Shown here: piece by piece, positions 23,063-29,819 of the stretch
Layout of the letters: every line of letters starts with the position of its first letter
How positions within the stretch are numbered: the stretch's first letter is position 1
Assembly: GCA_009839325.1 (NCBI GenBank)
Contig: VXPW01000089.1
Span: 1 to 62,507, forward strand
Direction: 5' to 3'
Origin: Rhodospirillales bacterium
GTDB taxonomy: Bacteria > Pseudomonadota > Alphaproteobacteria > TMED109
Length of the DNA: 62,507 bases
Translations under genes and position numbers: made by a program
The notes under the pieces: model-generated
Databases searched by the model: none
What the model was told of the DNA's origin: nothing
Seen by the model: only the letters and a program-made list of their open reading frames with translations

Positions 23063-23445
23063 CGGCTGGTCAAGCATCACCGCGACGGCGCAGGGATTGT
23101 CCGGGATCGACTGCAAGTCAAGGGTGGCTTGGCCCCGGACGCTCTCCCCGACGAAGCCTGAAAGATGAAGACCACGGATCCAGCCGCCCGGCGCTGAGCT
23201 CCGGTACCGCGCCCGTCGCCCGAAGGACGTTGATCCGTCGGCGCGCAACTCAAGCCCGTGGTTGTTGAACTGTCGGGCCTGGGCCCGGTCCGAGGCGATC
23301 AAGGATTCGAAGGCTGGCCCGCGTTTCCTGGCGACGGCCATTGAATGCCCAACCAAGCTCATTTGCCGTTGCAGCCGCAATCCGCGCGGGTTCCCCGCAA
23401 ACGTGTATTAATAAGAATATCTGATGATGACTATTATTAATCGGT
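23063..23445. other. Intergenic; weak minus-strand reading frame, then AT-rich DNA
   Basis: A 111-codon minus-strand frame (23380 to 23045) is open and contains some ordinary-looking stretches (ARYRSSAPGGWIRGLHLSGF), but no family is recognised and it overlaps the end of the dehydrogenase gene, so I do not call it. From ~23400 composition changes sharply to AT-rich up to ~23490, consistent with a promoter region for the small peptide gene. Confidence 0.45.
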
Positions 23446-23483
23446 ATTGGCCATTATCGATAACTATAGCCAATATTATTGGC
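23446..23483 (+). promoter_or_regulatory. Triple ATTGGC/GCCAAT operator-like repeat in AT-rich DNA
   Basis: ATTGGC at 23446-23451, GCCAAT at 23469-23474 and ATTGGC at 23478-23483. The first two form a dyad around the palindrome TTATCGATAA (23454-23463); the last two form a compact GCCAAT-ATT-ATTGGC palindrome. This spacing suits a dimeric/tetrameric regulator such as the LysR protein encoded ~440 bases downstream. It sits 64 bases before the small peptide start. Confidence 0.55.
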
Positions 23484-23546
23484 AGCACCGATTAGGCAGG
23501 TGCTCTGAAGTCAGCCGGCTTCGGGATGTTGGAACAGGAGACGATC

Positions 23547-23726
23547 ATGGGTGATCAAGCAATGACGGTAGTCGACGACAGCATGCCTTCCTTGGATCAG
23601 GCGGACGTGCTCGAAGAGGCCGAACAGGGCGAAGTCGCGGGCGGCATCGGGGCCAATTGCGAACAGGGACCGCAGAACACGTCTGACGGTTCGGGTTCCG
23701 GTTGGTGGAACGGTCCCAGCTGCTGA
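23547..23726 (+). CDS. 59-residue acidic peptide with Gly-Gly leader-like junction (candidate RiPP/bacteriocin precursor)
   Basis: Starts at an ATG with a GGAG site 6 bases upstream; an ATG at 23526 is possible but lacks one. The product has no Lys or Arg. Residues 1-33 form an acidic leader-like region ending LEEAEQGEVAGG, which resembles the EL..V.GG end of double-glycine leaders. Residues 34-59 are a Gly/Ser/Asn-rich tail with one Cys near its start (Cys38), a Trp-Trp pair (53-54) and a terminal Cys59. No modification enzyme or C39-peptidase transporter lies beside it. AT-rich control DNA precedes it, a stem-loop follows, and an OxyR-like regulator is downstream. It could also be a small redox-active or zinc-binding protein. 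Function is unknown. Confidence 0.6.
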   Translation: MGDQAMTVVDDSMPSLDQADVLEEAEQGEVAGGIGANCEQGPQNTSDGSGSGWWNGPSC

Positions 23727-23764
23727 AGCCAAGTTTCCGGTCGCCGAACGCCCACGAAGACGGG

Positions 23765-23820
23765 CACATAGCGCGGCGGGGACGCTGGCGGAGCCACCGG
23801 TAGTGGCCGCGCGTTATGTG
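23765..23820 (+). terminator. Large imperfect stem-loop after the small peptide gene
   Basis: The 5' arm CACATAGCGCGGC (23765-23777) pairs with GCCGCGCGTTATGTG (23806-23820) with a two-base bulge, and an inner TGGC-GGA-GCCA hairpin sits in the loop. It lies 38 bases after the peptide stop and ~100 before the regulator start. It may terminate or attenuate transcription; no U tract follows, so Rho-independent termination is not certain. Confidence 0.5.
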
Positions 23821-23917
23821 CGGCGAGGGCCCGAAACCGTATTCGCGGACGGGCTGAAATAAGAGCTTTGCGGCGGACTGTGAGAGCGGCGCCGCCGCGA
23901 TGGGAAAGGAAGAGGAC

Positions 23918-24883
23918 GTGAGGGTAACGTTACGCCAGTTGCGGTATTTCCGAGCACTTGTCGAGCATGGCTCGTTTAGTCGCGCGGCCGAAAGCGTGTT
24001 TGTTTCACAGCCAGCGCTGTCACTGCAGATTCAGGAACTGGAAGGCATCCTCGGCGGTCCACTGGTCGAACGTGACCGCCGCGGAATCATTCTCACGCAG
24101 CTGGGCCGCGATGTGCATCAGCAGGCGTTGAGAGTCCTGGACGAGACGTTGTTGCTGGAAACCTTGGGAAAGCGGTTCGCGGAGACTTCGCTCAGGGTCT
24201 CTGTCGGCATGGTTTCGACGTTGGCGCCCTACCTGCTGCCGGGAGTCCTTGAGCGTCTCCAGTCCGCGTCACCGCGGATCGAGCTTGACCTCAGGGAGGC
24301 TTCGGGTCAGACCCTGGTGTCCGATCTTCTCGCCGGCCGCCTCGACGCCGCCGTCGTATCGCTGCCGCTGGGGGTACTCGAACTGCCGGAGCGGGAGCTG
24401 TTCGAGGATCGCTTCCTGCTGGCCGGGCGCCCTGAGCGCCTGGCTGCCGTCACGCACGCGTTTGAGGGCGCGCCCCGCCCGCCGGACCTGTCTCGAGCCG
24501 ACCTCGGTCCGTTGCTCACGCTTGACGAGGGGCACTGTCTGGGCGAACAGATCCGTGGGGTCTGTGCAACCTGGCGACTGCAGGAGGTGCGTCGCGGCGC
24601 CGGGTCGTTGGCCACCCTGAGCAGGCTCGTGGCAAGCGGTGCCGGACTGACTTTGCTTCCGGAGACGGCAATCATCACCGAGCGCAAGAATTCTCCGGAA
24701 CTGGGCCTCTTCCGTTTCGCCGCTCCGGAGCCCTCGCGGCGTATTGGTCTGGTGCACCGCGTGGCATCACACGGTCAGCACTGGATCGACGTGTTGGGAG
24801 ACGCGGTAGCTGAGGCCGGCCAGGCGCTCGTCAACGATACCCGCGCGATGATCCAGTCCGGTACTACAGCGAAGGCGGCATGA
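23918..24883 (+). CDS. LysR-type regulator with OxyR-like cysteine pair
   Basis: About 321 residues. LysR winged HTH at residues ~4-62 (QPALSLQIQELEGILGG) and a sensor domain with the OxyR redox signature GHCLGEQIRGVC: Cys207 and Cys216, nine apart, followed by SLATLSRLVASGAGLTLLPE. It is a second peroxide/thiol-sensor candidate beside the true oxyR at 12.3 kb, clearly diverged from it. I prefer the GTG at 23918, which has AAGGA 6 bases upstream, over the ATG at 23900. Its neighbour is the small Cys-containing peptide gene, which it may control. Confidence 0.88.
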   Translation: MRVTLRQLRYFRALVEHGSFSRAAESVFVSQPALSLQIQELEGILGGPLVERDRRGIILTQLGRDVHQQALRVLDETLLLETLGKRFAETSLRVSVGMVSTLAPYLLPGVLERLQSASPRIELDLREASGQTLVSDLLAGRLDAAVVSLPLGVLELPERELFEDRFLLAGRPERLAAVTHAFEGAPRPPDLSRADLGPLLTLDEGHCLGEQIRGVCATWRLQEVRRGAGSLATLSRLVASGAGLTLLPETAIITERKNSPELGLFRFAAPEPSRRIGLVHRVASHGQHWIDVLGDAVAEAGQALVNDTRAMIQSGTTAKAA

Positions 24884-26738: not shown

Positions 26739-26971
26739 CCGTTCCTCCGCAGTTGCCGTCGACACCACCATAGGGTCGCCGCAGGCGTTCCAACCGACCA
26801 TATTCGATGACGCTGTCGCGTGGCCGGCGTTGTCGCCATTGCCGCGAACCAGTGCCTCGATTCTGCACACGACCGCTGTACGCTTGTGCGGTGCCTGGAC
26901 GGCACTTGGCCTCAAGTGGCGTCGCCGTGAGGCCACGTCAGTGCTCGCGTACGCGGGAGCCGGAGCCGGCA

Positions 26972-28000
26972 ATGCGAAACGCGGTGATCCTCGTGACCAT
27001 GGTGGCGCTTGCAGGCTCCGTTGGTGCTGCCCAGGCCCGCTCGGTTACCGATTCCGCTGGCCGGACGGTGACAATCCCGGACACGGTCCAGAGGGTCTAC
27101 GCGGCCGGGCCGCCCGCGGCCGTTCTGCTGTACGTCCTCGCGCCGGACCGCCTCATCGGCTGGCCGAGAGCGCCTTCGCCGGAAGACGAGCGCTACCTGC
27201 CGGAAGCGTACCGGGGACTGCCCGAGACCGGCCGTCTCACGGGTCGCGGAAATACTGCGAATCTCGAAGTCGTGCTTCGCACCAAACCCGATCTGATCTT
27301 TGACTTCGGGGCGGTACGGCGCGCGCACATCTCGCTGGCCGACCGCCTGCAGGCGCAGACCGGCATCCCGTACCTGCTGATCGACGGACGGTTCGAACAC
27401 ACGGCATCCGCGTTGCGGTTAATGGGCGACGTGCTCGGGGTCCCGGAGCGGGCCGAGGCGCTGGCAGCGCACGTGGAAACACTGCTTGCCGACCTCGAAT
27501 CCGTCCTCGCGGATATGCCGGAGAGCGGCCGTCCGCGGGTCTATCTTGCGCGGACGCCCTCGGGGCTGGAGACCGGCTTGCAGGGATCGATCAACACGGA
27601 AATCATCGAGCGGGCGGGCGGGCGGAACGTGGCCGGCGTCAACTCCGACGAGGCGAGCCGGCGCGGACTCACGCAGATGTCCGTCGAGCAGCTGATTCTC
27701 GCCAATCCTGACACGATCATCACATGGGACCGGACGTTCTACGCACAGGTGTGGTCGAGTCGGCTCTGGGAACCCATCGACGCCGTGCGGCAGGGTCGCG
27801 TGTTCCTGGCGCCGACGTCCCCGTTCGGCTGGATCGACCGGCCGCCGTCCGTCAACCGCATCATCGGACTGCGATGGCTGAGCGGGCTGTTCTATCCAGA
27901 TCGGATGCGATCCGACTGGCAGGAAGATGCCCGATCGTTTTACCGCCTGTTCTATCATGTCGATCTGACGGATGAGTTGCTAACCCGATTGACCGATTGA
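26972..28000 (+). CDS. Iron-complex/cobalamin-type ABC transporter, periplasmic binding protein
   Basis: 342 residues with a clear signal peptide (MRNAVILVTMVALAGSVGAAQA). BtuF/FecB-like helical-backbone fold: VTDSAGRTVTIPDTVQRV at the start, LEVVLRTKPDLIFDFG, and a C-terminal GWIDRPPSVNRIIGLRWL. The last motif is shared with binding proteins for siderophore, haem or oxyanion (MolA-like) uptake, so the ligand is undecided. GGAG lies 8 bases before the ATG. Its stop overlaps the TTG of the permease gene (TTGA). I looked for a cobalamin riboswitch in the 233 bases upstream and found none. Confidence 0.9.
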   Translation: MRNAVILVTMVALAGSVGAAQARSVTDSAGRTVTIPDTVQRVYAAGPPAAVLLYVLAPDRLIGWPRAPSPEDERYLPEAYRGLPETGRLTGRGNTANLEVVLRTKPDLIFDFGAVRRAHISLADRLQAQTGIPYLLIDGRFEHTASALRLMGDVLGVPERAEALAAHVETLLADLESVLADMPESGRPRVYLARTPSGLETGLQGSINTEIIERAGGRNVAGVNSDEASRRGLTQMSVEQLILANPDTIITWDRTFYAQVWSSRLWEPIDAVRQGRVFLAPTSPFGWIDRPPSVNRIIGLRWLSGLFYPDRMRSDWQEDARSFYRLFYHVDLTDELLTRLTD

Positions 28001-29037
28001 ACCCGCCCGGCAATCCGGAACGACCGCGCGCGCGAGCCGCCGGTCCGATCGTTGGCGGCATGGCCGCCGGTCTGCTGCTGCTTACCCTCCTAGCCATCAC
28101 GGTCGGGCCGTATCCCGTCTCGGTCGTCCAGGTCCTCGACGCGTTGCTCGATTACGCCGGGGGATCGGTGGGCGAAACGGATGCCCAGCTCGAGACCGTG
28201 TTGTTCTCGGTGCGCATTCCGCGCGTGCTGGCAGCCTTGCTGGTAGGCGCCGCCCTGGCGGCTGCCGGGACGGTCTATCAGGGCCTGTTCCGGAATCCGC
28301 TGGTGTCGCCGGACATCCTCGGCGTGTCTACCGGAGCCGGATTGGGCGCCGCAGTGGGCATCTTGATGTCGATGCCCGTGGTCGTGACTCAGGGCTTCGC
28401 TTTCGCGGGAGGGCTGGGGACGGTCGCACTGGTGTACGCCGTCGCAACGGCGGTCCGCGGCCACGATCCGATGCTGGTCTTGGTGCTTGCGGGCGTCGTG
28501 CTCGGAGCACTGGCGGGTGCGTGCATTTCGCTGGTGAAGATCCTGGCCGATCCGTACGATCAGCTTCCCGCGATCACGTTTTGGCTGCTGGGCTCGCTGG
28601 CCGGCACGCAACCGGGTGACGTCTGGTCGGTATTGCCCTTCGTGGCGGTCGGCCTGGTGCCGCTGGTCCTGCTGCGCTGGCAGATGAACCTGATGACGCT
28701 GGGCGACGAGGAAGCAACCGCGCTCGGCATCGACCCGCGCCGGCTTCGCGTGCTGTTGGTCGCGGCTGCAACATTGATGACCGCAAGCGTGGTGGCGATT
28801 TCGGGCGTGGTCGGGTGGGTTGGTCTGGTGATGCCCCATATCGCCCGCCTGGTCGTCGGGCCGAACTTCGATCGTCTGCTTCCGGCCGCGATGATCATGG
28901 GGGCAGGTTTCCTCCTGATTGTGGACACGATCGCCCGGACTATGGCGGCGACCGAAACGCCTCTGGGGATTCTGACCGCATTCGTGGGAGCCCCAGTGTT
29001 TCTCTGGCTGCTCGCGACCGGACGGCGCAGCTGGTGA
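27997..29037 (+). CDS. FecCD-family ABC transporter permease
   Basis: 346 residues with about 9-10 membrane helices. The family hallmark RIPRVLAALLVGAALAAAG is at ~residue 70, and GxxxQxxxRNPLxxPDILGVSxGA follows as QGLFRNPLVSPDILGVSTGA. The cytoplasmic coupling region near ALGIDPRRLR and VVGWVGLVMPHIAR are typical. It forms the membrane channel with the ATPase encoded next. The TTG start at 27997 overlaps the binding-protein stop; an internal ATG at 28060 is possible. Its TGA overlaps the ATPase GTG by 4 bases. Confidence 0.95.
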   Translation: MNPPGNPERPRARAAGPIVGGMAAGLLLLTLLAITVGPYPVSVVQVLDALLDYAGGSVGETDAQLETVLFSVRIPRVLAALLVGAALAAAGTVYQGLFRNPLVSPDILGVSTGAGLGAAVGILMSMPVVVTQGFAFAGGLGTVALVYAVATAVRGHDPMLVLVLAGVVLGALAGACISLVKILADPYDQLPAITFWLLGSLAGTQPGDVWSVLPFVAVGLVPLVLLRWQMNLMTLGDEEATALGIDPRRLRVLLVAAATLMTASVVAISGVVGWVGLVMPHIARLVVGPNFDRLLPAAMIMGAGFLLIVDTIARTMAATETPLGILTAFVGAPVFLWLLATGRRSW

Positions 29038-29819
29038 GCGTGTTGCGGGCCGAGGGACTGGGGTTCGGCTATCCCCGGTTCCCCGTCGGGCGGGCGGTCG
29101 ACCTGACGCTGCAGGCAGGCGAAATCATGTGTCTGCTCGGACCGAACGGCTGCGGCAAGACCACGCTGTTCAAGACCCTGCTTGGGCTGATCCCGCGCCA
29201 GGCCGGACGGGTCCTGGTCGATGATCGCGACATTCTTTCGCTTGACCGCCGGCACATCGCCCGAGCAATGGCGTACGTTCCGCAAGCCCACGCGACGGTC
29301 TTCCCGTACGCCGTGGGCGACATGGTCCTGATGGGACGGACCTCCCACCGCGGCACGTTCTCCGGTCCGACCCGGGAGGACCGGGATCGCGCGACCGCCG
29401 CGCTCGCCCAGTTGGGAATCGATGATCTGTCCGAGCGGGACTACACGCAGATTTCCGGGGGCCAGCGGCAGCTGGTCCTGATTGCCAGGGCGCTGGCCCA
29501 GGACGCTCAGCTGATTGTCATGGATGAGCCGACCGCCAGTCTCGATTTCGGCAATCAGATTCTGGTGTTGAACGAGGTAAGGAAGCTGGCAGCGGCCGGT
29601 CTGGGCGTCGTGCTTTCGACCCACAATCCCGATCACGCGTTCACATACGCGACCAGCGTCCACCTGCTGGGCGATGGTACCACCCAAGCCGCGGGTCACC
29701 CCATCGAGGTGCTGACGCCGGAGGTCCTGTCCAGGGTCTACGGTGCGCCGATTGCCGTCGAACGCCTGCCGAGTGGTTACAACGTTTGCGTGCCGACTAG
29801 CCTCGCATCCGCGTCCTAG
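29034..29819 (+). CDS. FecE/BtuD-type ABC transporter ATP-binding protein
   Basis: 261 residues. Walker A GPNGCGKTT at ~residue 34, the Q-loop in YVPQAH, signature SGGQRQLVLIARALAQ, Walker B LIVMDEPTASLD and the H-loop STHNPDH. It energises the preceding permease and binding protein. GTG start inside the permease stop (GTGA). The last ~48 codons (29671-29813) have a diverged, frameshifted second copy at 30977-31120, beyond a toxin-antitoxin pair, showing that a related ATPase gene once lay there. Confidence 0.95.
   Translation: MSVLRAEGLGFGYPRFPVGRAVDLTLQAGEIMCLLGPNGCGKTTLFKTLLGLIPRQAGRVLVDDRDILSLDRRHIARAMAYVPQAHATVFPYAVGDMVLMGRTSHRGTFSGPTREDRDRATAALAQLGIDDLSERDYTQISGGQRQLVLIARALAQDAQLIVMDEPTASLDFGNQILVLNEVRKLAAAGLGVVLSTHNPDHAFTYATSVHLLGDGTTQAAGHPIEVLTPEVLSRVYGAPIAVERLPSGYNVCVPTSLASAS

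Follow-up and report, generated by a model that had tools for sequence, protein, structure and literature searches.

A 59-residue peptide gene that precedes an OxyR-like regulator appears to be the most intact copy left of a small peptide gene which is being lost across its genus. We put the odds slightly above even (roughly 0.5) that it is the remnant of a double-glycine-type, probably secreted peptide gene, the first cistron of the operon of the OxyR-like regulator. Counted for this reading were the homology of the core with a Nitrospira sequence, an orthologue in one other genome (G003), the loss of the core in five relatives, a degenerate second copy, the contrast in dN/dS and codon positions with the neighbouring LysR gene, the retention of operator, ribosome binding site and ATG by 7/7 genus genomes and the presence of one NHLM exporter. 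Counted against it were the nearly unchanged core in the window genome (p 0.01), an ORF divergence below that of the flanks (p 0.004) and a Gln at leader position -7. The window, meaning the whole stretch of 62,507 nucleotides that was analysed, is contig VXPW01000089.1 of assembly GCA_009839325.1, from a Rhodospirillales bacterium, labelled G000 in a comparison of seven genomes of the genus (G000 to G006).

The peptide gene and the coding history of its tail

The gene lies on the + strand at 23547..23726, stop included, with its ATG at 23547 and a stop codon ending at 23726, and encodes MGDQAMTVVDDSMPSLDQADVLEEAEQGEVAGG|IGANCEQGPQNTSDGSGSGWWNGPSC. Its ribosome binding site AGGAG (23536..23540, +) is found as GGAGACGAYCATG in 7/7 genus genomes. 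The leader half, residues 1-33 (23547..23645, +), ends in EVAGG. The core or tail, residues 34-59 (23646..23723, +; IGANCEQGPQNTSDGSGSGWWNGPSC), is rich in Gly, Ser and Asn and contains Cys38, a WW pair and the terminal Cys59. The peptide has neither Lys nor Arg. All these features, on which the earlier note had based its proposal, are indeed present in the sequence. The neighbours of the gene encode a 2-hydroxyacid dehydrogenase and the LysR regulator, and searches of Pfam, NCBIfam and Rfam with the peptide gave no match.

Codon statistics in favour of the antisense frames had been named beforehand as a reason to drop the gene. This objection does not apply, since codon usage slightly favours the sense frame (0.205 bits/codon, with 0.069 in the best of the antisense frames), and the sense score lies inside the range of 59-codon pieces of the genes nearby, which average 0.37 (sd 0.17) with a minimum of 0.07.

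Further evidence came from outside the genus. Among the matches listed in a scan of genome contigs, at least one such relative was present, in a Nitrospira MAG (L003, E-value 4e-8), where the last 19-21 residues of the peptide recur with the stop aligned and 17 of 19 residues identical. The shared stretch reads EQxPQNTSDGSGSGWWNxP, followed by two residues and the stop (about 8015-8077 of L003, stop included). On the DNA level 49 of 57 nucleotides are identical, 5.5 of the changes being synonymous and 2.5 nonsynonymous; identity drops to background on either side of the shared tail. The chance expectation for such a match in a 257-Gb collection, both strands considered, is about 5e-8. The profile E-value of 1e-11 obtained for the Nitrospira copy is circular since this sequence is part of the profile; 4e-8 is the independent value. 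The match keeps the reading frame, its differences are mostly synonymous and it runs up to the stop codon; from this we conclude that the tail has been protein-coding. Judged by its sequence, the 59-residue ORF is not a product of chance and represents a real gene, present or former. One could still argue that the stretch is non-coding, or a dispersed DNA element left open by chance, and that the operator DNA or an mRNA leader is what is conserved. The changes between G000 and G003, which show no third-position excess, and the empty searches of Pfam, NCBIfam and Rfam would agree with this; the in-frame Nitrospira match and a gene-like codon score in the sense frame, however, make it very unlikely.

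In the Nitrospira MAG in-frame stops precede the tail, which lacks its own start, so this copy too is a remnant. Immediately 5' of it is a double-glycine peptide gene that is intact (MDEK...DLDELEKIAGG...) and present in 10/60 related genomes; no LysR gene was seen next to the tail. This Nitrospira double-glycine peptide (L003 7807-7959 and L049-L058) has a textbook leader, LDLDELEKIAGG, and a tail conserved as YAPDG-ILP, and it matched nothing above cut-off in Pfam or NCBIfam. Similarity found 3' of the Nitrospira double-glycine peptides in G101, G102 and G107 was too short to count. A terminator-like hairpin, CGCCTCTTCACCC...GGGTGAAGAGGCG, is common to intergenic regions of two Nitrospira genomes (L003 8200-8260 and L055).

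No further convincing member was found in 385 class, 398 phylum and 28 order genomes, nor, on the Nitrospira side, in 147 relatives and 396 phylum genomes of the MAG. Plasmids yielded two weak Streptomyces matches only, none of them convincing, and viral contigs, searched by profile and by pattern, no convincing member. Pattern matches with one mismatch in G000:C67, G003:C8, G002:C17, G001 and G006 were discarded: they were as frequent as those of a reversed-pattern control or less so, and carried none of the remaining core.

Loss of the core across the genus

The LysR gene, the operator-like repeat, the ribosome binding site and the ATG are kept in 7/7 genus genomes, the intact peptide in two, the window genome and G003. 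The full-length G003 orthologue is 71% identical and occupies the same place with the same spacing as in the window; its cleavage site reads VVCGS, and the GG is accordingly lost in the sole full orthologue. Of the leader, residues 1-20 are kept in G002 and G005, where a deletion at the same position starts at about residue 22 and reaches the DNA immediately 5' of LysR. The core is absent from G004, and G001 and G006 retain at most a weak out-of-frame trace of it (in G006 AGPQRATDGARSG, with an alignment score of 40, within the background range). The search for homologues that the earlier note had called for gave, at the least, the G003 orthologue and the Nitrospira tail, and adjacency to LysR, the second check it proposed, held throughout: the start and leader remnant of the peptide, or more of it, stands before the OxyR-like gene in 7/7 genomes. 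A second copy of the peptide gene has degenerated in G000, G002 and G003; it lies between TRAP-type solute-binding and carboxyltransferase-like genes, both named from their translations.

In the five coreless genomes the remaining ORF, despite lengths from 37 to 92 codons, ends at most 4 nt from the GTG of LysR or overlaps it. An upstream ORF that couples translation to LysR, for which the ribosome binding site, the ATG and the first codons would matter and the tail would not, could account for these endings and for the retention of GGAGACGAYCATG and the ORF start in 7/7 genomes. We consider this unlikely: in G000 and G003 the stop lies about 190 nt before LysR, the core is homologous at the protein level in Nitrospira with no LysR seen beside it there, and two of three frames in GC-rich DNA would in any case close near the LysR start.

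As for selection, the changes between G000 and G003 are distributed over the three codon positions as 5/12/5 in the peptide ORF, as against 9/1/55 in LysR (p 2e-7), and dN/dS is 1.3 for the peptide and 0.046 for LysR. This full-length comparison, which rests on one full orthologue, suggests little recent protein-level selection on the peptide between the window and G003. The ORF diverged by 0.122 between the two genomes, versus 0.218 for the flanking DNA (sides 0.226 and 0.202; p 0.004). The changes were polarised with the Nitrospira tail for the core and the G002 leader for the leader. Of the six changes in residues 39-59, five belong to the G003 branch; the window branch has one, against about 6.6 expected (p about 0.01, on few sites). 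For residues 1-22, 4/8 changes fell on the window branch and 2 on the G003 branch; the four on the window branch were all nonsynonymous, with no synonymous one. These numbers are small, but they suggest that the core is drifting in G003 and conserved in the window, the window leader being less so. Since its core is nearly unchanged and its ORF less diverged than the flanks, the window copy may still be functional and not a relic.

The two cysteines of the tail do not form a conserved pair, as residue 59 is Arg in G003 and in Nitrospira and Nitrospira has Ser at the position of Cys38. Cys59 probably arose recently in the window genome. A link between these two residues, as a disulfide or a lanthionine, was considered and rejected as a conserved trait.

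The leader and a C39 exporter on another contig

The recognition consensus of C39 peptidases is L(-12)xxxE(-8)L(-7) with a hydrophobic residue at -4 (PMC6363468, PMC6959990). The window leader fits it at L-12, E-8, V-4, A-3, G-2 and G-1, and has Gln at -7. In work on LahT, cleavage was strongly reduced when Lys or Asp replaced Leu-7 (PMC6363468). Processing of the peptide is uncertain because Gln occupies this position, where Leu is important. Double-glycine peptides are marked by Gly-Gly, or else Gly-Ala or Gly-Ser, at -2/-1; the window has Gly-Gly there, and G003 at best Gly-Ser. With class II microcins, ComC, LahA and CtA the peptide shares a short acidic leader with Leu-12, Glu-8, Val-4 and Gly-Gly, a short tail rich in Gly, Ser and Asn and a C39 exporter in the genome. 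Unlike these, it has Gln for Leu at -7, has an orthologue that lost GG and lacks an adjoining exporter, immunity or modifying gene.

The genome was searched for C39 transporters, as had been recommended, and contained exactly one C39 protein, in trans: the peptidase/permease of an NHLM exporter on contig C67 (TIGR03796, 838 bits, cut-off 853). A partner ABC protein (TIGR03797, 679 bits, cut-off 709), a protein with an NHLP leader and a SagD-type YcaO follow 3' of it. Outside the window, G000:C67:65682-77019 (L073, L109) holds a proteusin cluster resembling srp, with the NHLM exporter, the SagD-type YcaO and an LCCCW precursor; the NHLP-leader protein of the cluster has 442 residues and a weak match to squalene-hopene cyclases. 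The precursor near the exporter in G000 is of the NHLP type, and its core LCCCW is the one described for SrpE of sponge microbiomes (PMC10858898). In G003 a tryptophan-halogenase-like gene follows the cluster. The same exporter and an LCCCW precursor are also carried by the Nitrospira MAG, which makes an origin of both bacteria as sponge symbionts likely.

The peptide itself differs from the precursors of this cluster. No NHLP leader domain (TIGR03793) was found in it, although true NHLP precursors were found elsewhere in the genome. The genus shares with the proteusin system of SrpE the NHLM exporter, the only C39 protein found in G000, and LCCCW precursors of the NHLP type, whereas the 59-residue peptide lacks the leader, is about two thirds as long and is encoded on a different contig. 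Bromination of the WW pair by SrpI was also considered; SrpI needs a leader motif of the LxxxxL type (PMC10858898), which the peptide leader does not have. In the case of prochlorosins (PMC10783134), a single promiscuous enzyme acts in trans on the precursors, and small precursor copies there likewise stand apart from export and modification genes. The window peptide differs in having two copies only, one of them degenerate, and no match to a Nif11 leader.

The earlier statement that no modifying or export gene stands beside the peptide is correct locally, where no cluster of modifying enzymes surrounds it, but the genome does have its one NHLM C39 exporter on the other contig. The peptide is alone at its locus, as the term "unusual solitary precursor" implied, but this is better explained by an exporter elsewhere and gene loss in relatives. 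Export in trans by the NHLM exporter is possible on the basis of the leader motif, but not secure.

A working peptide would have a core under selection, export in trans by this C39 protein, possible modification by the srp YcaO or a halogenase and control by the OxyR-like protein. The nearly unchanged core on the window branch, an ORF less diverged than intergenic DNA, the GG, Leu-12, Glu-8 and Val-4 of the leader, and the exporter and modifying enzymes in the genome, with a halogenase-like gene seen in G003, argue for it. Against it stand the drifting leader with its nonsynonymous window-branch changes, the GG lost in the sole orthologue, the Gln at -7, the lack of an NHLP domain and of an SrpI-type LxxxxL motif (PMC10858898) and the core lost in 5/7 genomes. 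We regard such a peptide as doubtful. That the tail, beyond this, is a functional secreted peptide of an unnamed family, under OxyR-type control, exported in trans by NHLM and shared, probably by horizontal transfer, by Nitrospira and alphaproteobacterial-like symbionts of the same type of host, appears quite unlikely.

The operator-like region and the OxyR-like regulator

Upstream of the peptide gene, a putative AT-rich operator or promoter with the 5' leader of the predicted peptide-LysR operon spans 23405..23546 (+) and is present in 7/7 genus genomes. The AT-rich stretch proper, 23405-23480, had been recognised before as operator-like DNA, and it holds a repeat kept in 7/7 genomes. Between G000 and G003 this region is 8.5% divergent, versus 20-23% for flanking intergenic DNA (p 1.6e-4). 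The repeat, an inverted one, GTATTGG-n18-GCCAAT around TTATCGATAA at 23444..23474 (no strand assigned), is a candidate LysR-type operator; its arms lie at 23445-23454 and 23466-23475, and it is absent before a paralogue in G001. That paralogue (G001:C60:76889-77860, L062) is a second OxyR-like LysR, 71% identical, which keeps the GHC...C pair and has neither the operator nor the peptide start upstream.

The regulator gene (23918..24883, +) likely starts at GTG 23918, an upstream ATG at 23900 not being kept in G001, G003, G004 and G006. Its product has the HTH_1 domain PF00126 and the LysR_substrate domain PF03466. The motif TLDEGHC-LGEQIRGV-C (GHC-x8-C) places two cysteines nine apart, as had been reported; this GHC...C pair occurs in all seven genus orthologues and aligns with that of GHC-containing OxyR in the PDB. 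The best PDB matches are OxyR structures and the best NCBIfam model is OxyR, at 168 bits, below the equivalog cut-off of 329. The regulator thus shares with OxyR its fold, best matches and cysteine pair, but reaches only about half of the required equivalog score; a redox response may be presumed by analogy with the family. Elsewhere in the window, genes at 26960-29819 for a periplasmic binding protein, a permease and an ATPase look, from their translations only, like those of an ABC system for uptake, seemingly of the iron/haem/cobalamin type.

Autoregulation, and hence co-expression of the peptide, is suggested since the conserved upstream repeat and the co-directional layout fit it. The LysR-type protein would probably bind the inverted repeat at 23444-23474 and control its own operon, and the peptide would be co-transcribed and hence produced at the same time as its regulator. 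In a cell that still uses the peptide, cleavage after Gly33 would remove the leader, and the single NHLM-type C39 exporter of the genome, encoded on the other contig, would secrete the 26-residue tail, which might have some activity. Of the secreted or redox-responsive peptide that the earlier note envisaged, there remain a real gene before an OxyR-like gene, an operator-like sequence and an exporter in the genome. That such a peptide is maintained is not supported, in view of the core intact in 2/7 genomes, the GG lost in G003, codon changes that look unselected, the Gln at -7 and the unconserved cysteines.

Small precursor genes are seldom annotated and have mostly been looked for beside their enzymes. 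At this one locus, in seven related genomes, the loss of such a gene can be traced while its core survives in another phylum. Should the peptide be functional, it would be a secreted peptide tied to a redox-type regulator, and a proteusin exporter would serve an unlinked precursor.
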